From positions 9,719,898-9,783,897 of the forward strand of contig CM037864.1 in the NCBI GenBank assembly GCA_021292105.1: 64,000 nucleotides of DNA, written 5' to 3'. This DNA is from Anadara kagoshimensis. Its lineage: Eukaryota; Mollusca; Bivalvia; Arcoida; Arcidae. The position numbers were made by a program, and so were the translations under genes. Below are positions 7,601-52,240 of this stretch, in pieces (the first letter of the stretch is position 1; each line of letters starts with the position of its first letter). The notes under the pieces are model-generated. The model searched no databases. It was not told the DNA's origin and saw only the letters and a list, made by a program, of their open reading frames with translations.

Positions 7601-10341
7601 CAATACATTACAATACAATACATTACAATACATTACAATACAATACAATACAATACAATACAATACAATACAATTATGAATATGATCAGTATACATATAT
7701 GTTAATTAAAATAAATATTTTTACTGTTCCAATTATTAAGACGTACTATAACATTTTGGTCATTTTGCTACCAGTATACACTATTTTAAAAATGAATACT
7801 TTTAGTCTCATTAAGTAAATGCACACTACACACTTATGTTTCATTTAAAAGCATAATATATAAACTTACAAAATATGTGTTTACTAATAGACAGTTAAAT
7901 GTTAATAAACTGTATGGCCACCTCTTGCAGGGTTCGTACAGGCCTGGAAAAGTCCTTAAATTTTTAGGTTTGCCCTAAAAAGACCCTAAAAACAAGTGTG
8001 ACCCCAAAAAGTCCTTGAATTTATTCTGAAGGCCCTAAAAAAAACCTTGAATTTGGCCAGTTTGGTGTCTGTATTTTGATATTAAGTGTTGAAAATAGAC
8101 TGATATATATAAATAAATTAAGTAATTAATAAGTAGTGTTGAAATAAGCAATTTAAAGGTACCTGGTCCTCTTGAACGCCTAACTTTAACCTCTACTTCA
8201 AGTGTCGCTACTACGGACACGTAAGTAATTGTTTGATTGGTTTAATTGCCTTTGCGCCAATATTTTTTTTTGCTAAAATTGTCCCTCTGATTAGGCCTTA
8301 AATTTGCAAATAAGACCCTGAAAAGACCTTAAAAAGTCCTTAAATTTGGAGTCTAAATGTCTGTACAAACCCTGATATAAATTTACAAAATACGTGTTTA
8401 CTAATACATAGTAAAATGTTAATAAACTGGTTATTTGTATGGCCACCTCTTGGTTAGCCAAAGGGTTTGGTGTATACCTACTGACCTTAATATTTTTAAG
8501 AGCCTCAGTGGAAACACATATTTTATTCTTTGGCCTTAGTATATTAAATATATATAATATTTTACCATTATATTCTACAAATTTGATATCTGATGACATA
8601 TCATTTTAAATTTTTGTAATATCAAAAATATTTGCCAGAAGTTAACCTTATAATCATCATATCTAATTTTGTTCGTAGAATTGAAATATTAAAGTTTTTC
8701 TTGTATTTGAAAGTGAAATCTTAATTGTATGATCTAAATGTGTGTAACTAAGTTATTTTGCTTGAAAATCAATTTTCTTGAAATTTTCTGACATTTTGGG
8801 GGGAAATATTAAAAATTGAGAAAATTACATTTTTTTAAGATAAAAACACTATTTTAGCTGAAGAACAATTAGATTTAGCATAATGATGTTTTCAACAATT
8901 TAATTTTGTGAAGATTTTGAGTCTATTATGATAGGACCAATTTTAAACAAGATGATTATAACAATTTATGGAGGGCAGTGTAGTATTTCGACTACCTCTT
9001 GGTTAGCCAAATGGTTAGGTGTATACCTACCGACCTTAATATATTTAAGAGTTTTAGCAGAAACTCAAATTTTATTCTTTGGTCTTAGTATATTATTATT
9101 ATTATTATCATGATATTTATTATATTTAACCGTTATATTCTACAAATATCATATCTGATGTCATATCATTTTAATTTTTTTTTTCATAAGTTTTGTAATA
9201 TCAAAATATCAAAAATACAAATGTAACTTAGATATACAATATACAAATGTATTTCAATTTAAGTTTTCAAATTTTTATTTCTACTTCAGTGGGGTTCGCT
9301 GCTGTACCGCATTATAACCCCTTACATTTGTGCGGAATAATTATTTCCATCGGGTATGGAATCATATCAGTTCACATTTCCTTGTAAAGTGTTGTTATAG
9401 GAATTCTTGATCATGCCAGTTCACGTTTCCCTTAAAAAAATAGCATTTTTTAGGAATTTGGGCCATTAACATTTTTCAAAAACATTCCACACAAATGTAA
9501 ACGTGTGTTGATCATGTGGTACAGCGGCGAACTTCAATATTTTATTTTATGCGGGTGGTACAGATAATGGTGGTCAATTGATGCATCAGACATACAGTCA
9601 AACCTGTCTATAAAGGCCACCTAAGGGAACCAATAAAAGTGGCCTTAATGGACAGGCGACCTTTATACACAGGTTCAAATAGTGTAAATAAAGAACAATT
9701 GGTATACAATTCTACTGGCCTTTATAAGCAGGTGGCCCTTATATAGAGGTTACCTTTAAGACAGGTTTGACTGTACATCACTGGTGGGGTATATGCACTA
9801 TTTTCTTGCCTTAAAAGTTATTACATTGATGTAAAGTAACTTGTCTGGTAATTTAGGCTTCCAAGTGTACACATGGTGTGGGGTTTGCAGCTGTTCCATG
9901 TGATCACCACCACTTAATGTTTTGAAGAAAAGTCTACCATCATGAGATTTTTAAAAATTTTTAAATGAAATCATGGTGCTTGGATTTCTTTAAAATTCCA
10001 TTTTTCTGGATTTTTTTTTATAAAGACTTTGTACACGTATTTGAATCCAGTCATATTGAGTATAAAATTGCAACCCGACTTGTGCAACCTTGTGTCTGTG
10101 AATTTTTTTCTCATAACAAGGGAATGGATGCAAGATACATACAGGTGCTTGTGGCATCTTCATATCTAGATCACCATTTTCATACTAAATGCATGGGTTT
10201 TTTTAAAGTGGCAGCACCATTTTTAGCTCATTTCATAAACACGTCTTGTTAAATTAATAAAAATTTTCCTCATTTTCAGGCTTTGATAAAGATGATGATG
10301 ATGAGATAGCCAATGAAGAAGAATTGCCATTGTTGCCATAA
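1604..10341 (+). CDS. Phospholipid phosphatase (PAP2/LPP family), C-terminal part, four exons
   Basis: The gene encodes an integral membrane lipid phosphate phosphatase, which dephosphorylates phosphatidate, lysophosphatidate and related lipids. Exons are 1604-1661, 2626-2802, 3020-3113 and 10280-10341. All have AG/GT borders, and the phases agree (0, 0, 1), giving about 129 residues to a TAA stop. The first exon holds catalytic motif 2 (PSGHASFS). The second holds motif 3 (SRVSDNKHHWSDV), with the catalytic His and the Asp. Hydrophobic stretches on either side of motif 3 match transmembrane segments 5 and 6 of the family. The tail is cytosolic and ends in an acidic run before ELPLLP. Motif 1 (KxxxxxxRP) and the N-terminal half are expected left of the window. 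The last intron is about 7.2 kb and full of MITEs. Animal members of about 280-310 residues fit well. The paralogue (PLPP1/2/3-like) cannot be told. Confidence 0.88.
1704..2325. repeat. Tandem repeat, about 124-bp unit, 5 copies, intronic
   Basis: Units begin near 1704, 1830, 1954, 2078 and 2202, each with 'gctattcagaggacattg' and ending in 'aaattcccaaactc'. The middle units are almost identical and the outer ones diverged. The array lies in the phosphatase intron after the PSGH exon. Confidence 0.9.
2626..2802 (+). CDS. Phospholipid phosphatase exon with SRxxDxxHHWSD motif
   Basis: The 177-nt exon has acceptor 'tgttacag|tta' and donor 'gtg|gtaaga', phase 0 on both sides. It encodes a basic loop, a transmembrane segment (LLQVLFLYMTYYTCI), the catalytic motif SRVSDNKHHWSDV and the start of the last membrane helix. 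Confidence 0.9.
3020..3113 (+). CDS. Phospholipid phosphatase exon, cytosolic tail
   Basis: The acceptor is 'tttttcag|gta' and the donor 'acagag|gtatgg'. The exon starts in phase 0, ends in phase 1 and completes the last helix (VCFMTNL). A hydrophilic tail rich in Asn, His and Arg follows. Reading through the donor would give an alternative stop at 3157. Confidence 0.75.
3290..3554. mobile_element. MITE, family C (caaacaac...gacctttc ends)
   Basis: Terminal inverted repeats are present: 'caaacaacattgacctgtc' on the left, and 'gacaggtaagttttgtttg' on the right, next to 'aaaaggtcaag'. A second copy lies at 13744-13962. There is no coding capacity. It lies in the last phosphatase intron. Confidence 0.6.
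3555..4218. other. AT-rich intron sequence, nothing recognised
   Basis: Low-complexity AT-rich DNA within the last phosphatase intron, without coding signal or a clear repeat boundary. Confidence 0.4.
4219..4411. mobile_element. MITE, family D (ggtttgccgctgtacc ends)
   Basis: The left end 'ggggtttgccgctgtacc' mirrors the right end 'ggtacagcaatgaacc'. It is related to 9289-9535 and to a single end at 9877-9905. The overlapping 91-codon frame is not a gene. Confidence 0.55.
4857..5309. mobile_element. MITE, family B, interrupted near 4920-5222
   Basis: The ends 'caggaaaaccctgat' and 'aaggttttactg' flanked by TA, and the inner blocks ('cagtcaaattttggcg/tgat', 'cgataagc.ag.tggca'), match the intact copy at 22800-22985. 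About 300 bp of unrelated sequence splits the copy, including the open frame at 5033-5227. Confidence 0.6.
5033..5227 (+). other. Short open frame, possible orphan or captured exon
   Basis: The 64-codon frame has a more protein-like composition than its surroundings (SHIIPIPGEPVKANSK, LLFHMWFERE). A strong donor-like site lies at 'gagggag|gtgaga' and acceptor-like 'ctag' and 'gtcag' lie near its start. Its phase does not fit between the phosphatase exons at 3113 and 10280, so I do not include it in that gene. It sits in the DNA that splits a MITE. Function unknown. Confidence 0.2.
5443..5785. mobile_element. Non-autonomous hAT-like element (CAGGGGTT ends)
   Basis: The left end 'caggggttgaaaattctt' and right end '...aaatattttttaacccctg' form short terminal inverted repeats. 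Both flanks begin with CTATT, a possible 5-bp core of the target duplication. The CAGGG terminus is typical of hAT elements. No transposase frame is present. Confidence 0.5.
5915..6118 (+). repeat. MITE-like inverted-repeat element, family E
   Basis: This is the inverted partner of 600-835 (shared 'gtgtgtaattcaagcatgcc', 'cctttgtcgg.acattgtggg'). The two copies flank the visible 5' part of the phosphatase gene. Confidence 0.6.
6310..7095. repeat. (TTG)n and divergent tandem repeat after a TTTAGCTCACCTG end
   Basis: A short (TTG)n lies at 6310-6336. From 6464 the dispersed bivalve end motif 'tttagctcacctggctgaaa' leads into three divergent units of about 130-190 bp sharing 'cagctagtatatgaag' and 'atcaatttcattggttt'. 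Confidence 0.55.
7113..7290 (+). mobile_element. MITE, family A, diverged copy
   Basis: It starts after TA with 'cagacacacctgtctata' and resembles the cleaner copies at 9595-9773 and 10520-10702 throughout. The right terminal repeat is worn. Confidence 0.6.
7508..7675. repeat. (CAATA)n microsatellite with CATTA variants
   Basis: About 168 bp of 'caata' pentamers interspersed with 'catta' in a near-regular pattern. It lies in the phosphatase intron. Confidence 0.95.
7928..8374. mobile_element. Non-autonomous hAT-like element (CAGGGTTCGTACAG ends)
   Basis: The left end 'cagggttcgtacaggcctgg' mirrors the right end 'gtctgtacaaaccctg', and 'gtccttaaattt' repeats inside in both orientations. A left end of the same family recurs at 21178. 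The DNA on each side is a pair of direct repeats (about 7860-7927 and 8375-8455), so no clean target duplication can be read. Confidence 0.6.
8447..9215. repeat. Local segmental duplication, two diverged copies
   Basis: Block 8447-8640 ('cctcttggttagccaaa.ggtt.ggtgtatacctac') recurs at about 8978-9215 through 'cttagtatatta', 'ttatattctacaaat' and 'atatctgatg.catatcattt'. The copies are direct repeats separated by about 340 bp of AT-rich sequence. Confidence 0.75.
9289..9535. mobile_element. MITE, family D
   Basis: The left end 'ggggttcgctgctgtaccg' and right end 'ggtacagcggcgaac' are inverted. It is the best-preserved member of the family. Confidence 0.65.
9595..9773 (+). mobile_element. MITE, family A, intact
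   Basis: The left end 'cagtcaaacctgtct' and right end 'agacaggtttgactg' are near-perfect inverted repeats flanked by TA on both sides. This suggests a Tc1/mariner-type target. It is non-coding. Confidence 0.75.
10280..10341 (+). CDS. Phospholipid phosphatase terminal exon
   Basis: The acceptor is 'cattttcag|gc'. Entered in phase 1, it gives GFDKDDDDEIANEEELPLLP and TAA. The phase match with 3113 and the acidic tail support the join across the 7.2-kb intron. The other frames stop early or lack such a tail. Confidence 0.7.
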
Positions 10342-12353: not shown

Positions 12354-13655
12354 TTACGAACAGAGAGTAATCTCTGGGAGTATTGTCATGGGAGCCGTTT
12401 TTAAAATCCGGACAGGCTGAACAACCGCTAATTGACAAACCTTGCGCAAACTATTAATAATGTAGTGCGGGTATTGAGCGTCATTTATGAGAACATTGGT
12501 ATAAGCGTGCAAATAATCGATGTATACATTATGTTGTATGGAATGTGAAAATGAATATGCATCATTGTTTAAAACTATTTGATTAAACTCTGCTGAGGTA
12601 GTCTGCACCTATATTGCCAACACCTTTAATAGCTCTTACCTTGAATTTGTATGGCTGGAGAGACAAAACCCATCTCATTATCCTACTATAAGCCAGTTTA
12701 GTCATATACACAAGAGGGCAATGGTCTGTTTCAATAACAAACTCTACTCCATATAGATATATCTGGAACTTGTATATTCCCCAGACCAAACCTAGACATT
12801 TTCGTTCTATAACAGAATATCTTGCTTTCTGTGGCAATAATTTCCGACTCGCATATGCAATTGGGAACTTTACCTGTTCTGTTTCTTGTATCAAAATTGC
12901 TCCTAGACCCGTTAACGAGGCATCTGTTCTAAAAATAAATACCTTTTCTAAATCTGGCAGCTTCAATATTGGACCTTTAACCATGTACCCTTTCAATGAC
13001 TGAAATGTCTCCTCTGGCACTGAATCCCAATGAATATTACTAGGAACAACTTTTCTTGTAAGATCCGTTAGATGGGCAGCCTTAGTGGAGAATTTCGGAA
13101 TGACCGTAAAATGACCGTAGCTGTTTCTTTGTGTTTGGTCGCTTTGCATCTAATATTGTACTTACCTTACAAGGTATTGGTTTCAACAAACCATTCCCAA
13201 CATCATAACCCAAAAACTCAACAGACTTAAAGCCTACCTGACACTTGCTAGGCTTCACTGTTAAATTTGCCGACCTTAACCTATGGAAAACCTCCTTTAG
13301 TGCCTGCAAATGTTCCTGCCATGTTTCTGTATGAATCAGTATATCATCTACAAAGTTGTCTACCGATGCAAGTCCAGCCAATAACAACCTCATCATTTAT
13401 GACGCCTGAGCAGTTACAAGACCAAATGACAATTTACGGAATTGAAGCAATCCATCTGGCGTTGAAAATGTCGTAATTGGTTTACTAGTTTCTGATCATT
13501 TTATTTGCCAGTAACCTTTACTCAAGTCCAGTTTCGTGAAATATACACTTTTTGACAGTTTGGCAAATATTTCCTCCGGATTCGGATTAGGTTCTGGGTC
13601 AAATACAGTTATTTTGTTGATATTTCTGAAACCAATGCAGAATCTTTTTTTACAT
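12354..13655 (-). pseudogene. Ty3/Gypsy pol relic: reverse transcriptase and RNase H
   Basis: Reading leftward, three broken frames carry the finger/palm start of reverse transcriptase (motif FTKLDLSKGYWQI, 13655-13496) and the catalytic block with FVDDILIH in place of YxDD (13396-13200). The RNase H domain follows (FRTDASLTGLGAIL, with a TDHCPLVY-type motif, 13100-12600) and ends in GADYLSR. Frameshifts and at least one in-frame stop separate the parts. Gag, protease and integrase are missing, so the copy is dead. The residual linker runs to 12354, next to the LTR. Confidence 0.85.
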
Positions 13656-14240: not shown

Positions 14241-15200
14241 TTACGGAAAATAAAGCTGTTGCTTATTATAGCGCTTTAAACTAAAATATTGTTTTGTTAA
14301 GGATATAATGATGTTAATGTCATAATTATTTTGACTCAGAATCCCGAATATTACATCTTTTATACCAATAGTAATAATTGTACCTGTAGTTTCAAAGATC
14401 CAAGTCTCAATGTTATTCCAGATATCCCTTACTTGTTCGCAGTCCAAAAACAGGTTACATAGATTTTCTTCAAATGCGTTACAAAATGTACAGTTAGAGT
14501 TATTAGTAATTTTCATCTTTTTTAATAATTTATTTGTTCCAAAAATTTTAGATAAAATCCGAAAATTTAGCCATTTCAATTTTGTGTCGTTTGTGTTTTT
14601 TAGTGTATTAATATAAAATGTATTCCAATCAAAAGTGTCTGGCAAGTTAAATTCATTCTCCTATTTGGATTCGACTTTTGGTTTTGAGTAAAAAGATTTA
14701 CTAGTAATGAAAAATATGATAAATATGTCTTGTTCCTTTCGGTTGTCTGCTTATGTACTCTAAATCACTAGTTACTTGCTCAATTTTATCAGAAATATCA
14801 TAAGATTTACAGATTGATCTTTTTAATCCTTCATAAGTTGTGAAGGGAATATTTATTTGCGCGATGTTTTGTAACATCTCCATTGTAAAAAAGTTTTTCT
14901 CTGCACTTAGTAATTCTTTTATTTATCACAAATGTGTTAGTTTTGGTAATAATAACAACGATTTAATTACTATTTTTCCAAATGGAGTCAACAATCTTCT
15001 TTTCCATGACTTTAGTTCATAATCTATTTTATTTAGATAATTATCATAGTTTAATGAAGTAATACTTTTCAGATCGGGAGTTTGAGTTATACCTAAAACG
15101 GTGAAATTTGAGTTTGTCCATTCTAATTATATGTCAGAACATAGAATTTCATTAGAAAATAACTTTGTACCTATCCATTCTATACTGCTTTTGTTTTGTC
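14241..15200 (-). pseudogene. Non-LTR retrotransposon (L1/Tx1-like) ORF2 C-terminal relic
   Basis: The best-preserved block (14645-14241) is a zinc-binding reverse transcriptase C-terminal domain (zf-RVT-like). Its pattern includes LKWLNFRILSKIFGTN, then CTFC, a later LxC, and DIWNNIETW. Upstream pieces (15110-14940) carry the LGI...NYDNYLNKID...W+RRLLTPFGK pattern that follows the polymerase core in this class. Stops and frameshifts break it into three frames. The catalytic core is absent. About 250 bp further left (13965-14240) may be its 3' UTR. Confidence 0.75.
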
Positions 15201-18724: not shown

Positions 18725-18900
18725 AAATGTAACTGTGTAATGGCACCCAACCCCAATGGTATATTCGGATACCTGGACATTGTCCGTTTTTCGCTTTCTT
18801 TAGTATCAAACACCAAGATCCGAAACAGCACCCACCTCCTAGCTCCGTATGTCGCGGTCATAAAAGAGCCACTTTTCGGAGCTTGAATATACAAGGTAGC

Positions 18901-19210
18901 ATGGCAGATGTGTTGAGTAATCAAGAAGTGTTGATGGCATTGCACATGGTTTTTACCAGATTTGATCTACACTGTGTAAGAGTAGGCCTGAGTAATGCAA
19001 GTCGACCACTGCCATTCACTAAGGCAGTATGCGAAGTGGAATTTATCAGGCAACCAGGATGGTCCTCGACAGTAATTGAATTTCAGAGCCTTTTCGGAAC
19101 AGGGTTTGAACTTATTTCGGATTTGAATCTAGGTAAAAGGAAGTACGAAGAATTAGATAGTCACTTCAAGAAGGCATTTGAAATTCTGGACAATTTCATG
19201 AAGAATAAAA
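18901..19210 (+). CDS. Uncharacterised gene, exon 1
   Basis: Exon of 310 nt with start ATG and donor 'aaa|gtgagt'. The frame is open upstream of the ATG but has no earlier Met. It encodes an alpha/beta-looking segment ending in Lys-rich FKKAFEILDNFMKNK. Confidence 0.75.
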
Positions 19211-22200
19211 GTGAGTAAACATAGTTCCCATGGACCTCTAGCAGACGAATTTTTCAGTGGCGAACGTTATTTACACTTAAGGCCGTATAACGCAGGTAGT
19301 AGGCTGGCGTTATTTACACTTACGCATGCACAATACGATAACTAATATCAGCTGTATAAGGGCAAGGTTGTGTTCAATGAAGTATATCGGTTAATGTATC
19401 AGGAACAGTTACAAATGCCATTATTATATATAAAAAAATATTTAATTATTCAAAACATGGTACTGTTGATGAATAATCAAATTAATTTAATTATGTATGT
19501 AATATGACGTATAATAACTGAACATGTTTCCAGATCCCACGACGAGGACGTGGTTCTCACAGGATCCATTTATTTGATTAGTTATCCATGATAAATGATT
19601 TAAAATTAAAGAGAAAATGAGAATTTTAGCAGCTTTTTGTGATAGTATACAAATTAAAATGGATAACTAATATATGACAAAATTTATGGACAATTAATAT
19701 CTCTGAAGTTACACAAAACATTTGTTTCTCTCTCAAGCTTTACTCCATAATAATGGCATAGTACAAAAAAAAATTAAGTCAATTTTCCAATTCAAAGAAT
19801 GATCTTGAAACTGGAACCACTGAAGCCATATTTAAAATATAAACTTTCTTTTCTGATAGGTATGCATGAAAAAAGCATAGCTGCATTATTGAAGAATGGT
19901 GACAATCTCACAGAAACTGTTGTAACATCTGCATTAGCGGAACATTTGCTGAGTAAACTAGCACCAGAACAATCATATACTATTGATAAAAAATGTAGGG
20001 GCAAGAATGACATATGTAAATGTGGATGTAAGGCAAAAATTAATTTTGGAGACACAGGGATCGGTAAGAAATCAACTAAAATATTATACTCTGTCTTTAA
20101 CTTATCTTTCCGTCTGTAAATTCACATGAAAATAGAATGTTTAATCAAGTTTTTAGCTCATATGAGTGAATCCTTCCTTTTTGTCCATTAACAATTGTCC
20201 TTCATACCGATGTGTCCTAATACATTATATTAACGTGTTAGTCCTCTTACACAGCACAAAGTCACTTGTGATTATAGTACTTTGTGAATATAGTACTTTG
20301 AAGTTTTGTGAAGGATCACTTGTGATTATAGTTCTTTGTGATTATAGTACTTTGTAATTTTGTGAAGGATCACATGTGATTATAGTTCTTTGAAATTTTG
20401 TGAAGGATCACTTGTGATTAAAATACTTTGAAATTTTGTGAAGGATCACATGTGATTATAGTTCTTTCATTTATATACACTACATTGTTTAGGCTTCAAC
20501 ACCATTTTCCAATAGACTTGACTCTATTCAATGTCAAATTTGATTGCTGTGAATGCATATTTCAAGAATTTGAAGGCAATTTAAGTGACTGTTTAGTATC
20601 TCATGGTAAATATGGTGGTGTTTAACAAAAAACCCTTGGTTTACTTTGATAATTAAAATATTCATGGCACCCAACTGTCCATTGTATTGAAGTATGCAAA
20701 GCTAATAATGTAGATATAATATTTACTGATTGTGCACATTTAATTATTATTTTACAGGTCACGAAGAAGTATGGCATGGTTTTGTAGACATAATGTTTTC
20801 TTCACATGATGGAATGGAACCTGAGGCTGCAGCTGTGATGCAAAATATTCCAGTACCAGAATCTGATACAGAACCAGTTATTAAAAAGTCTAAACAAGGC
20901 ATGTTTTCCCTTTATATTGATATTTGATGGATGGTTCAAGTGAGATGTGAAGATTATACGTGTACTAAGATTCCTGACTTTGCAAATCTTTTACAGCATT
21001 CAGTTTGTCTGTCCATCTGTTATAATTTTCTTCTTTTGAAAAGGGTATATATATATATATATCTGTCTGTCCATGTAAAAATCTTGTATGGGCCATACCA
21101 AAACAGTCAAGGTCTTGGGGGGAAAAGTATGTTTTAAAATTGTGTCTGGACAACTGTCATAAAACTACACAGTGAAGGGTTCGTACAGGCCTGGAAAAGT
21201 CCTTAAATTTTGAGGATTGCACTAGGTCAATTCATAGAAAAACCTTTGTTACATACTCTAGAGTCCATATTTTTTGTCCAATCTTCATATAATTTGTCCA
21301 GAACGATGTTCATGACCAAAGCTATGTCAAGTTTGTATATGAATCATGTTGGGTCAATAAGTAGGTCACTTGGTCAAATCATAGAAAAACCTTGTTAACA
21401 CTCTAGAGTCCTTATTTTTGTCCAATCTTCATATAATTTGTCCAGAATGATGTTCATGACAAAAGCTACCGGTAAGTCAAGTTTGTATATGAGTCGTGTT
21501 GGATTAATGAGTAAGTCACTAGGTCAGATCATAGAAAAACCTTGCTAACACTTTAGAGTCCATAGTTTTTGTCCAGTCTTCATATAATTTGTCAAGAACA
21601 ATGTTTAGGACAAAAGCTAGGTCAATTTCATATTAATTAATAATGAACACTGTTAACCAACTATTCATGACATTATTGGAAAAGTGTGTAGAATTCAATT
21701 TATTCTCAGGTGAGCACCCAAGGCCTCATGGCCCTCTTGTTCAGCAAAAGTACTAATGCATAGACAGGGATTTTTCTGGGTATCCATAGGGTCTGGTAAA
21801 GGGACCCATTCCCAATGCAAAAAAAAACATACATTTTTCCCAATTCTGTAGTAAAAAATTCCCAATTAGCTATGTTTATCAATTTTTTGAGAGAAAAAAA
21901 ACACAAGATCATCAACATCATATTCGGAGGATATCTCGTTCTGATAACGATTTTAATTTATATTAACCCACATTTTGCTGGATGATTTATATAGAGACAA
22001 AAGACAGCGCTATTTTGCTGTGAACACCGATATAATTTGTTCAATTACCAGTATTCTAGTGGTCTAGAATTTCTAATATGTTGTTGTGATTTTTCCCAAA
22101 ATTACATTTTTGTTGAGCATTTTCCCAATTTCATCCCAAGGTCCTTTTCCCAAAAAGGTCAGAAAAATCCCTGACAGATGCAATATTAATCTAATTCTGA

Positions 22201-23783
22201 CTGTCTCCAAAATAATCAAGTTCATATTTTTACCTTCAGTCCAGTGGATGCTTTATATCTATTGGGCAAGGATTGGATTAAAAGTCAAGATTGTTTCACT
22301 GTCAAACATATTTAGGGATGGGGTAGGAAACTGTAGACCCCAGAGAAAACCAACGACATAAGGCAACAATCTGACAAACTTTCTCACACAAAAATCTGTC
22401 CTGAATGTGATTCCAACCTAGATGTTGAGAGACTGATAGAATCTTACAGAAATTTCACTTGCATAATATAATATCAGGAGTCGAGTACAGTAATAAAGTT
22501 TTAAATTCCAGTCAAAATTATTTCACTTATGTTGAGGTAGTCAGTTCAGGGATGGTTAAGGAAACCAGAGTGTCTGTAGAAAACCACGGTTCTTCAGCAA
22601 GTGAACTTATACAATTTCTAACTAGTTGTTTAGCAAACAGGAATATTAAACTCTGCCAAATGCATAATAAAAGTGAATGGATTGTGATAAATTTCATAAA
22701 AAAGCTCAAAGGCAGATTTTGATGCATCACTATCAGTTATCATTAAGATGATGTCAATGTGTGGAATATGACCAAGATGATGTCAACATGTGGGATATAC
22801 AGTAAAACCTTGATTCATCACCACCATTTGTTCAGTCAAATTTTGGCGTTATAAAGGGGTTTGCGATAAATCGGGGTAGGCGGATAAAGAAAAACATAAA
22901 CAAAATGGATTTTGGGACTTAAAAATAGTGTGGCGATAAGCGAGGTGGCAAAGTTATCGAGGGGCATTATAACGAAGTTTTACTGTAGTTTAAGGTATTT
23001 TTGCTGAAGCTTTTTCCTTGCACCTCTTTGCTAATTATTTTGTCAAGTTATGCATGTTATGATAATGAAGGATCAAGACTTTTCAGCTTGGTTGGTTTCC
23101 CTATGTCCTTGTTTATAAAAAAAAAAACTTTTTTAATATTCTCTTATTTTATTTTCACTACTTTCGTTTTAATTTTAGCCCTAGACCAAAAGGAAAGTGA
23201 AACTTGCAGTGACAAAAAGGAAGATTCACCTGATGAAAATTCAGATGTCAATAAAGATTTATCAGGAAAAAATGCAGACAGTGACAGTGACTTGGATCAT
23301 AATGGTGACACAGATGATCAAACTATTGCCCAGGCTATAGTATTTTCATTGTTACAAAAACAAAGACATCCAGAATTTAACAGCTTCTTGATACCAACCA
23401 TCGCTATCTCATCCACTGAATTCAAAATTTTAATGTATGACGCTGAAAATGATATTCTCCTAAGAAGCAGGAACATTAATTTATTTTTAGAACAGGGGTC
23501 ATCTGAAATACCAAATTTTTGCATCATTATTCTTTGGATGGTATTACACTACAGGATATTTGCCTCAGATTTGAAGAAAATTTCTTTGAGGGTGGATCTA
23601 AATAAGTTAAAGTCTGGTTTTTTAGATAAAATACCAGCAGAATGTTTTGAAATATACAAATCCAAGTTAAAATCATGTGTTGCAGCATTTCCTACAGTCT
23701 TAAAAAAGGGTCAAAATACAGAAATATTGGGCAGTTATCTTGCCAATAACCCTCGTTTTTTGGATTTTGTCAGTGCAGTATAA
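18901..23783 (+). CDS. Uncharacterised 419-residue protein, four exons
   Basis: Exons 18901-19210, 19860-20063, 20758-20898 and 23179-23783 join in phase 1 at every junction to 1260 nt. Introns 1 and 2 are GT-AG; intron 3 is best read as GC-AG. The ATG has a good context (gtagcATGg). No signal peptide or membrane segment is evident. Regions in order: a compact N-terminal domain (1-103); a segment with an Ala/Leu helix and a CKCGC cluster (104-171); the motif GHEEVWHGFVDIMF; an Asp/Ser-rich acidic linker (about 225-270); and a C-terminal domain with QAIVFSLLQ, LIPTIAIS and LMYDAENDILL. I recall similar motifs in unnamed bivalve proteins. The HG-x-VDI strand followed by a Gln-bearing helix recalls PD-(D/E)XK nucleases, but an E-x-K motif is not clear. 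The function is unknown; the nuclease idea is inference. Confidence 0.72.
19860..20063 (+). CDS. Uncharacterised gene, exon 2
   Basis: Acceptor 'ttctgatag|gt', donor 'gggatcg|gtaaga', 204 nt. It encodes a predicted helix (TSALAEHLLSKL) and the cysteine cluster CRGKNDICKCGCK. Confidence 0.72.
20228..20470. repeat. Short tandem repeat in intron 2 (cttgtgattatagt.ctttg)
   Basis: Five to six irregular units share 'ttttgtgaaggatcac' and 'tgtgattatagttctttg'. The apparent small ORFs are translations of the repeat. Confidence 0.8.
20758..20898 (+). CDS. Uncharacterised gene, exon 3
   Basis: Acceptor 'ttttacag|gt', 141 nt. It encodes the signature GHEEVWHGFVDIMF (its first Gly spans the junction). 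The 3' end uses 'aacaag|gcatgt', a GC donor. A GT donor in the right phase is not available before the frame closes near 20925. Confidence 0.62.
21178..21720. repeat. hAT-like end plus three about 150-bp tandem units
   Basis: 21178-21225 repeats the left end of the element at 7928. From 21226, three units carry 'tcatagaaaaacctt', 'agagtccat' and 'tcttcatataatttgtc'. The block closes with 'caggtgagcacc...ggccctcttgtt', the 3' end of the common bivalve TTTAGCTCACCTG element. It lies in intron 3 of the uncharacterised gene. Confidence 0.7.
22318..22612. repeat. Fragments of the SINE body related to the 51-bp satellite
   Basis: 'tctgacaaactttctcacac' and 'tctgtcctga' (22370-22402) and 'aggaaaccagagtgtctg.agaaaacca' (22558-22590) match the natural flank of the satellite unit. 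The 87-codon frame here is a repeat translation. Confidence 0.55.
22800..22985. mobile_element. MITE, family B, intact
   Basis: TA-flanked, with ends 'cagtaaaaccttgatt' and 'cgaagttttactg'. The inner sequence is rich in 'cgataa.c..gg' motifs. It is the full-length reference for the split copy at 4857-5309. Confidence 0.75.
23179..23783 (+). CDS. Uncharacterised gene, exon 4
   Basis: Acceptor 'aattttag|cc', 605 nt to TAA. It encodes the acidic low-complexity linker, then the C-terminal domain with QTIAQAIVFSLLQKQ, LIPTIAISS, LMYDAENDILL, a hydrophobic helix (IIILWMVLHYRIFA) and a mixed helical tail. The open frame extends back to 23001 only through intron sequence. Confidence 0.75.
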
Positions 23784-24125
23784 TTACTGGCATCAAACTT
23801 AAACATTTCATAAATGTGTTACTGAAAATTTATGAATCACCATTGATCAACCTATAAATATGGTGCTATTTTTGGTGATTTTGTAAAATGGTTCAAATCA
23901 TCTTCATTTGTTGTCTCACTTCCATGCAAGAGTTGTAAATGACATTAGGGATCACATGGCATTTTCTTTAGGGTCCCCTTTTGTTATAAGTATTGATGCA
24001 ATGATCATTTTGATGTATAGTAAAAGATTATGGACTCAAAGGTCAAGATCCCAGATGCAAAACAATACTGAAATTGTTAATTATCTTCGAAACTATAAAC
24101 TTTATAGGCATATATATACATATTA
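23784..24125 (+). other. 3' flank; copy of the 57-kb repeat unit
   Basis: From about 23980 ('atgatcattttgatgtatag', 'ctcaaaggtcaagatc', 'cgaaactataaacttta') this is one unit of the tandem repeat at 57220-57720. The unit resumes at about 24590 beyond the inserted element. Confidence 0.6.
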
Positions 24126-24270
24126 TATACACAGTGTGTATGTACAACCCTCAGTATCAGGTCGAGTCCTTTTTTTCGTAGCTGTATCACTACGAGAGTA
24201 GTGATACAGCTACGAAAAAAGGACGAAGACGAGACCTGATACGAAGGGTTGTACATACACACTGTGTATA
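24126..24270. repeat. Near-perfect 70-bp palindrome with GAGA loop
   Basis: The arms 24126-24193 and 24198-24270 pair almost completely (cores 'acacagtgtgtatgtacaac' and 'gtagctgtatcactac'), with loop 24194-24197. It is part of the element inserted in the repeat unit and is absent from the related copy at 40487-40785. Confidence 0.85.
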
Positions 24271-24585
24271 TAGTATTTTTATCTAACATTTCCAATTAGG
24301 TTGTTTAAAATAATAAAAAAACAATACTTTATGTGAAAAGAAATACATTTTTATACCACAGAAAACCACTGAACTATGTTACGACAATTGTTCTCTAGTA
24401 ATCATTTGACAAAATCAAAGACTCCCTAATGATGTCACAATGAGAAAGTGCAAGTGCACTTTACCGCCAATGTTGTATCACCACAGTGTGGTGATACAAG
24501 ATTCTGTATCATGCGTGTTCAATAAAAACTTGTATTTCGTCAAATCAAATAGAAAAACTAGTCTAATGTTAGATAAATAAGAATA
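24271..24585. mobile_element. MITE, family H
   Basis: 'ttatctaacattt' near the left and 'aatgttagataaataag' near the right are inverted. An internal perfect 23-bp palindrome sits at 24475-24497 (core 'caccacagtgtggtg'). 40487-40785 is an inverted-orientation relative. With the palindrome at 24126 it probably forms one inserted unit. Confidence 0.65.
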
Positions 24586-50445: not shown

Positions 50446-52240
50446 GGCCCGTTTCAATGGCTAATTTTAAAGTCCCATTTCGGAAATTGCATAATGTTCG
50501 TCGGTGATCTCTATACATGTATTTTACTCGTCTTACATAATCCTTACAGTTTACAGTGCGTTTATACATACGATACGTTCGTAGTTTATTTCCATTGTTG
50601 TTAGTGTTGTCGTTCCATAGATTTTCGATCCAGTTTTGTACATCCTTTAGACGTAGAGACATATTTAGTCCAATCGCGCCTTTGATGCAATCTGTTCATT
50701 GTTATATGTCGGTATGTCGATATCATTTATTAGTTTCTTTAGTCGAGTTTCCCACAATCGAAGTGTATTAAGTGACGCAGAATGAAGTTTGTATAATATT
50801 CTATCATTTTCAGCGCTTGAAAGTCTACACTTAACCGACATGCCTCGAACTTTTGCTTTACGTTTGTTGAATTCCAACCAGGCAACATTTCCCCTTAGCG
50901 ACAGGTTTGGTACATTCTTTGAAGCTCCAAGAAACAGGCGACAAGCTCGGTTTTGGACTGCTTCTACCTCTTTATACCGATTGATTCCCCAAATTCCGGA
51001 AGCATAATACTGGCTCATCTAAAACCCGGTACAAATGTTAATAAATGTCAAAGTCCATTCTTCCGGCATATATGTATTTGAAGTATGATGCAGAAAGTGC
51101 TCTATTGGCAGATTTACACAGTTCTTTTACGGATTTATTTAGGTTTAGATGTTCGGTAAACCAAAATCCTAGATATTTATATTGTGTCTAATTTGCCGCA
51201 TCGAAAAGATACAACAGTACGTGTAAAGGACGGATTTCTGAAATGGATTACTTGTGTTTTGTCTCTATTTACAGTCAGTTTCCATTTACAACACCAGTCA
51301 TTTATAACGCCCAGCATCTTTTGAAGAGATTGTTTATCTGGAGCAACAATGACTATATTATCTGCATATAAGAGAGCTGACACCATTATATTGTTGACCA
51401 TGATCCCGCAGTTTAAAGCGTTTATATCGTTGACCAGATCATTTATGTAGATTGAAAATAGTGTGGGCGATATCTTACATCCCTGTTTGACTCCCTGCAC
51501 TGCATTAAAAAGTTCAGTCTGTTCATCATTCGCTAAAACTGAGCATTGGGCATTATTATACAATGCTTTAACACCATTTAAGAACTTACCACCGATTCCC
51601 ATGTCTTTTAATTTATACCACAAGTGATCCCTACTGACACTATCAAACGCCTTCTTCATATCTATGAAACAGGCAAATGTAGATTGACCTTCCATTTTTT
51701 CTGTTATTTATAATAATATAAAGTGAATAGATATGGTCCATACAACTTATGTTGCGTCTGAAACCATTCTGTTCATCCACAAGTACGTTAGTCTGTTCTA
51801 ACCACTTCATTAGTCTATTATTTAAAACATCAGTAATATCTTGCCAGGAACCGATATTAATGCTATTCCTCGGTAATTAAGTGGGTCAGTATTGTCTTTA
51901 GTATTCGGGTTTGGTATGGGCTTTACAGTGCTCTTTGTCCATTCTGTTGGAATCTCCCCATGCTCAAAACAATATGAACATATGGTATGCAATAAATTCA
52001 CACAGGTTGCATTTTTAAGTACTTCCCTCGGAATATCATCTATTCCAGACGCCTTTCGCACTTTTGCTCGCGTAATCGCTAGTTCATGATTTCCTGTACT
52101 GATATAAGTTCATTTAGGATTGTCATGTCTAAATAGTGATTGTTTGTTCTAATTACGTAGTTTATCTTTGGAAACATGTTTTGTTGCGAATCGAATTCGT
52201 TTGTGTTGTCTCCTCCATTGTAAAGTTTCTCGTAGTCCGT
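50446..52240 (-). pseudogene. Non-LTR retrotransposon (Jockey/CR1-like) ORF2 relic
   Basis: Reading leftward: a pre-core block (KASGIDDIPREVLKN..., 52061-51822); the polymerase core (51695-51177) with FIDMKKAFDSVSR, QGVKQGCKISPTLFSIYIND and an active-site variant YADNIVIV in place of YADD; a thumb/connection block (51018-50665) with AVQNRACRLFLG; and a C-terminal block (50662-50446) ending LAIETG. Frameshifts separate the blocks, so it is inactive. The 47.8-50.4-kb element is inserted at its C-terminus. Confidence 0.85.

Follow-up and report, generated by a model that had tools for sequence, protein, structure and literature searches.

A 64,000-nucleotide stretch of the Anadara kagoshimensis genome (assembly GCA_021292105.1, contig CM037864.1, forward-strand positions 9,719,898 to 9,783,897; hereafter the window) carries on its + strand a complete four-exon gene, which begins with an ATG at 18901 and whose stop codon ends at 23783. 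Comparison with the whole genome showed that this gene is intact and belongs to a large family of dispersed copies with introns, whose reading frames are selectively kept open. The conservation pattern of the family fits the core of RecB/Cas4-like PD-(D/E)XK nucleases. We tentatively propose, with a confidence somewhat short of even, that it is a fast-evolving family of this type, some members of which retain the His, the Asp, and the E-x-K triplet, and that the window copy has lost E-x-K and probably binds nucleic acids without cutting them. The window copy is not to be filed as a proven member of the superfamily.

The exons of the window gene (310, 204, 141, and 605 nt; 1260 nt in total) encode 419 residues plus the stop codon. 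All three introns are in phase 1; introns 1 and 2 are GT-AG and intron 3 is GC-AG, and no in-phase GT for intron 3 was present among the GT dinucleotides listed from 20850 to the stop of the frame at 20927. The initial annotation, made from the sequence of the window alone, had joined four exons in constant phase to 419 residues, and this model was recovered with exact coordinates and recurred in paralogues. The landmarks that it had listed, namely a cysteine cluster, GHEEVWHGFVDIMF, an acidic linker, and the segments QAIVFSLLQ, LIPTIAIS, and LMYDAENDILL, were all present in the translation, and it had placed the helix, G-x-x-D strand, acidic linker, Q-helix, and strands in the right order.

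The genome (1.115 Gb, 36 contigs) was searched with the individual exons. Exon 4 gave 53 matches, the best non-self match having an E-value of 7.3e-88 and the seven top non-self matches showing 74-82% identity; exon 1 gave 24 matches and exons 2 and 3 together 58. These counts take in fragments and are lower bounds. Among the 27 of the 53 exon-4 places that were listed, 23, distributed on ten contigs, had all four exons in order on the same strand, and of the remaining four, exons 1 and 2 were not found for two on C15, nor exon 1 for the one on C2, and the one on C14 was a fragment. The splice sites and phases of the window gene recurred in the modelled paralogues (given L numbers below; L147 is the same place as L013). 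The GC donor of intron 3 was found in 17 of 18 modelled copies including that of the window, L028 having GT, when donors were assigned by a script that chose the nearest in-phase GT or GC; the donor of L019 was not found. In all seven of L029-L035 intron 3 is absent and exons 3 and 4 form a single open frame, which means that one branch has either gained or lost the intron. Chance exons were rejected on the basis of the matches across the genome and the recurring phases and splice sites.

Selection on the family was investigated using exon 4. The pairwise ratio of nonsynonymous to synonymous substitution rates (dN/dS; Nei-Gojobori method, own script) between the window copy and its paralogues was 0.24-0.47 for five distant copies, intermediate for L016 and L022 (0.70-0.79), and highest for ten close copies (0.98-1.59), with L011, L020, and L024 left out. 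Codon and site models were fitted on a fixed tree with our own short implementation to 11 close copies and, for comparison, six distant ones. The one-ratio model yielded an omega of 0.26 for the distant copies (log-likelihood about -2617 vs -2676 at omega 1) and 0.94, indistinguishable from 1, for the close copies. All 11 close copies were nevertheless free of stop codons; under neutral drift 7.5 of them on average carried a stop, and none of 2000 simulations remained stop-free throughout. A pseudogene was rejected on this comparison. The frames of the family are therefore held open by selection, and in recent copies amino-acid changes accumulate at about the rate of silent changes.

Conserved residues were counted over 28 models, taking for each column only the rows that hold it and cutting off exon 1 of L024, which contains stops in its model. 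H132, C156, C160, G167, T169, and G172 were identical in 15/15 rows, W177, H178, G179, and D182 in 25/25, and I272, V273, P291, Y305, D310, W338, and Y378 in 28/28. With five further loci (L142-L146), W177, G179, and D182 were found in 30 of 30 and H178 in 28, the residue being Y in L144 and L145. The invariant H132, in a helix predicted from the sequence, would correspond to motif I of the nuclease core, and D182, closing a G-x-x-D in a predicted strand, to motif II. L144 (C9:9384680-9385200) and L145 (C11:29296480-29297060) make up a third subfamily, with W-Y-G in place of W-H-G; these two copies, of which L144 reads G-K-P-D at the D182 motif and I-I-E-V-K farther on, are the nearest to the canonical PD-(D/E)XK pattern.

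The family resembles a RecB/Cas4-like nuclease domain in having a His in the first helix, a hydrophobic-G-x-x-D strand, a Q-helix followed by strands, and, in some copies, E-x-K. It differs in that the window copy and most models have no E-x-K, the Q is not invariant, and a long acidic insert is present. Cas4 also has a cysteine cluster; its His94, Asp123, and Glu136 lie at or near the metal, and the cluster consists of one N-terminal and three C-terminal cysteines (PMC4176176), whereas the cysteines of the present family follow the first helix and precede the D strand. These cysteines allow an alternative that we regard as serious although unlikely: a different, zinc-stabilised non-nuclease fold, in which C156, C160, and a histidine would hold a structural zinc, the linker would be acidic tail-like, E-V-K would be a short binding motif, and the protein would be an adaptor or a transcription regulator. 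Both cysteines (15/15) and H178 (28/30) are conserved as such a fold would need, there is no significant nuclease match, and most models have no E-V-K; on the other hand, the order of helix-His, hydrophobic-G-x-x-D strand, E-x-K, Q-helix, and strands resembles that of RecB-like nucleases, and D182 is present in every one of the 30 copies whereas H178 is Y in two.

The E-x-K triplet of motif III was compared between copies. In the stretch from D182 to the Q-helix, 21/25 models contain some (D/E)-x-K, mainly in the charged linker, and the bare triplet therefore means little. In the close subfamily, several copies have a GGKCPAEVKVDL segment (GGK-C-P-A-E-V-K-V-D-L) 16 residues ahead of the Q-helix; L031 and L032 have SPGGK-S-x-I-E-V-K-V 17 residues ahead of it, L032 reading SPGGKSSIEVKV, and L144 reads GQIIEVKD. 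Counted within 13-22 residues ahead of the Q-helix, a span picked after the pattern was seen, [DE][VI]K occurred in 9/36 models from three subfamilies (L012, L014, L015, L019, L021, L025, L031, L032, and L144). When the linkers were shuffled, a mean of 0.74 models was expected and none of 5000 shuffles reached nine; with one model per branch, the count was 4/19 against 0.45 expected, which 5 of 5000 shuffles reached. L018 also has E-V-K, at 11 residues ahead of the Q-helix and thus beyond the span counted. At this site the remaining copies have E-V-E (L010, L011, and L022), E-V-N (L017), E-A-E (L009), E-D-K (L016), E-E-K (L029), or D-V-Q (L023), and in the linker comparison the segment was missing from L013, L140, and the window copy. 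From D182 to the Q-helix the window copy has no strand-like (D/E)-x-K; the only such triplets there, D-Q-K and D-K-K, belong to the charged linker. This agrees with the initial annotation, which had found no evident E-x-K strand. Its phrase "inactive or rewired member" reasonably describes a copy that keeps H132 and D182 and is without the motif III triplet. The likeness to PD-(D/E)XK nucleases that it had pointed out was partly supported, by the invariant H132 and D182 and by E-V-K or D-I-K in a quarter of the models, but the triplet is not conserved, the helix Gln varies, and profile comparisons were not significant.

Several points weigh against the proposal as a whole. Q270 is Q in 23/28 models and K, M, or E in the other five; also, a QhXXY pattern was not found in this helix, where the residue four past Q270 is F, C, or N, and Y solely in L033. 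C156 and C160 match H132 in invariance and fit a zinc site. A second (D/E)-x-K stands right behind the D strand in some copies (E-K-K in L145, E-D-K in L033, E-E-K in L143, and E-Q-K in L035), and we are unsure which of the two candidate triplets would mark the true motif III strand, as both cannot; neither is conserved across the family. The set of copies leaned to high scorers, and stops were found in 5 of the 53 exon-4 matches. Positive selection speaks for the proposal, the M2a model being preferred over M1a across the whole domain (twice the log-likelihood difference, 62.9; 10 of 17 selected sites in the gappy C-terminus), but was weak after near-gap columns had been dropped (8.3 over 91 gap-safe codons, P 0.016; sites N286, R316, and G365). 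Gene conversion could have inflated the signal, considering that dS between the window copy and L010 was 0.24 in exon 1 and 0.04-0.06 in exons 2-4.

Comparisons with libraries and structures belong on the same side. None of the nuclease families or structures compared was matched significantly, and the models, which were of single exons, gave no confident structure. In Pfam, NCBIfam, PADLOC, and PHROGs there was no convincing family for the window protein or its paralogues, there was no convincing match to a chain in the Protein Data Bank (PDB), and literature searches returned no paper naming the family. The Pfam family PDDEXK_9 (PF08011) gave no match to the window protein and a sub-threshold one to residues 8-72 of L145 (E 0.0069; 16.8 bits vs a cut-off of 25.5), which spans G-N-A-D and the second-candidate E-K-K; it has chance-like peers in DUF3226 (E 0.0092) and a rhamnosidase-like domain (0.014). 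L027 weakly matched an HNH endonuclease family of a different fold (phrog_1891, E 0.062). Alignment of the family profile by hhalign with RecB, lambda exonuclease, Mrr, and YqaJ gave less than 1%, which is not significant, but a cross-family control also failed: clam YqaJ against RecB, a true distant pair, reached 0.3%, compared with 98.4% for YqaJ against lambda exonuclease. The failure of the YqaJ-RecB pair indicates that profile comparison is powerless across PD-(D/E)XK families. The top RecB alignment of the family profile set GFVDIMF on GFIDLVF (E 0.08-0.11), while the unrelated control YjiA gave 0.04-0.06; a short-linker core profile picked the same RecB strand (E 0.15), with lambda Bet as the control at 0.10. 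In single-sequence models, exon 1 was predicted as H-E-E-E-E-H (predicted local distance difference test score, pLDDT, 62) and exon 4 alone as H-E-E-E-H (pLDDT 42), the latter compatible with a nuclease core and proving nothing; the structure matches of both were common arrangements only. Separately, the region of the Q-helix and strands weakly matched the functionally uncharacterised phage family phrog_34389 (E 0.00078 for L031, residues 47-106; 0.022 for L029, residues 233-301).

Under the RecB/Cas4-like assignment, the product would be a two-domain protein, in which exon 1 would form a small alpha+beta domain and exons 2-4 the nuclease-type core. This core would begin with the first helix bearing H132 (motif I) and the strand bearing D182 (motif II), followed by the acidic insert, a short strand with E-V-K in several copies (motif III), the Q-helix, and strands carrying Y305 and D310. 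Nucleic acids may be cut by those copies that have His, Asp, and E-V-K (e.g. L012, L014, and L015). The window copy has no E-V-K segment and would therefore most likely bind nucleic acids, perhaps with a metal, without efficient cutting. A nuclear site would be suggested solely by the KK-x-K stretch. The C-terminal domain of RecC, a degenerate RecB-like nuclease domain that is part of bacterial RecBCD and binds DNA without cutting it, could serve as a functional model for such a disarmed copy. In known members of the PD-(D/E)XK superfamily the lysine has been replaced or has migrated (PMC1189080), and the loss of E-x-K is therefore compatible with membership. The same precedent (PMC1189080), together with the open frame and the retained H132 and D182, would allow the window copy to be an active nuclease with a relocated or replaced lysine, which we consider very unlikely, as an invariant Lys that could take its place in the core was not found: K363 (26/28) is in the C-terminal helices, and K215 and K217 (17/18) lie in the linker and are missing from distant rows.

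The duplication and divergence of the family resemble those of genes in genetic conflict, which would be with a virus, a mobile element, or a similar opponent. The SPOK spore-killing proteins of Podospora offer a parallel: this family too duplicates and is dispersed, and its members combine a cysteine cluster with a nuclease domain predicted to be of the PD-(D/E)XK type (PMC6660238). They differ in having a kinase domain and a coiled coil and in requiring the catalytic lysine K240 for killing (PMC6660238). That the armed (His, Asp, and E-V-K) and disarmed copies together form an evolving layer of genome defence or of invertebrate immunity, made up of nucleases plus decoys or serving in recognition, is an improbable extension of the proposal. 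If the fold is true, a bacterial-type nuclease core has been multiplied, diversified, and partly disarmed in an animal, as in an arms race, and the occurrence of armed and disarmed copies in one genome would permit a side-by-side comparison of their roles. If the fold is wrong, what remains is an expanding family, so far without a name, whose conserved C-x3-C ... W-[HY]-G-x-x-D signature is described in none of the libraries searched.

The boundaries of the copies were compared in 7 of the 23 non-self exon-1 matches and 7 of the 52 non-self exon-4 matches. Homology with the window copy began at 18881-18893 in all seven exon-1 loci and ended at 24081-24118 in all seven exon-4 loci, and intron pieces between these ends still aligned at approximately 80-95%. 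Such sharp ends would be expected if the gene is, or was, the cargo or enzyme of a mobile element, which would explain why copies with introns are scattered over at least ten contigs; we nevertheless hold this to be very improbable, because no inverted repeat of at least 18 nt joined the two ends (25 longest of 49 pairs) and upstream sequence was common to near copies on one chromosome (L038/L041 and L040/L043), as in ordinary segmental duplication. Upstream pieces of L037 also occurred in L038 and L041, and some paralogues had downstream sequence in common.

The features of the window gene are listed in Table 1.

Table 1 Positions in the window of the exons, motifs, and repeat of the gene.
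Feature	Position	Strand	Basis or location
Exon 1: N-terminal alpha+beta domain (predicted), residues 1-103 and first base of codon 104	18901..19210	+	24 genome matches; single-sequence model
Exon 2: predicted helix with invariant H132, strand, cysteine cluster	19860..20063	+	Splicing; paralogue conservation
H132 codon	19943-19945	+	Exon 2
Cysteine cluster C156-x3-C160	20015-20029	+	Exon 2
Minisatellite-like repeat in intron 2	20229..20467	+	Longer in several paralogues
Exon 3: WHG-x-x-D strand, then KK-x-K stretch ahead of GC donor	20758..20898	+	Splicing; genome matches
W177-H178-G179-x-x-D182 motif	20772..20789	+	Paralogue conservation
Intron 3, GC-AG	20899..23178	+	Splice model; paralogues
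Acidic linker of exon 4, without the GGKCPAEVKVDL-like segment of several paralogues	23179..23306	+	Linker comparison
Remainder of exon 4: Q-helix, three predicted strands, helical C-terminus	23307..23783	+	Genome matches; single-exon model
Codons of Y305 and D310	23436-23438; 23451-23453	+	Predicted strands of exon 4

YqaJ and lambda exonuclease (PF09588), a known PD-(D/E)XK family, is also numerous in this genome, with 109 matches; among 14 control genomes only two (E. coli and B. subtilis) have any. Membership of the window protein in YqaJ was rejected, as it had no Pfam match and the profile comparison gave 0.1-0.6%; moreover, the 109 YqaJ places listed and the 53 exon-4 matches had no place in common when compared by eye. 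The YqaJ copies are possibly element-borne. Fragments of retroelements (Pfam RT_RNaseH PF17917, zf-RVT PF13966, and RVT_1 PF00078) lie on the - strand of the window at 12583-13149, 14241-14660, and 51177-51707.

The intron 2 repeat has units of approximately 38-54 bp, is greatly enlarged in L009, L010, L011, and L020, and might promote recombination between copies. In L011, 90 nt of exon 4 recur directly behind the gene (about 8686-8775), a partial duplication. A 140-bp stretch downstream of the window gene (23982-24117) has many repeats upstream of exon 4 in L015, L016, L018, and L026. A long near-palindrome at 24111-24285, with 58-nt arms that are 86% complementary and a perfect 23-nt inner hairpin, lies approximately 330 bp past the stop codon, where the homology with paralogues ends.

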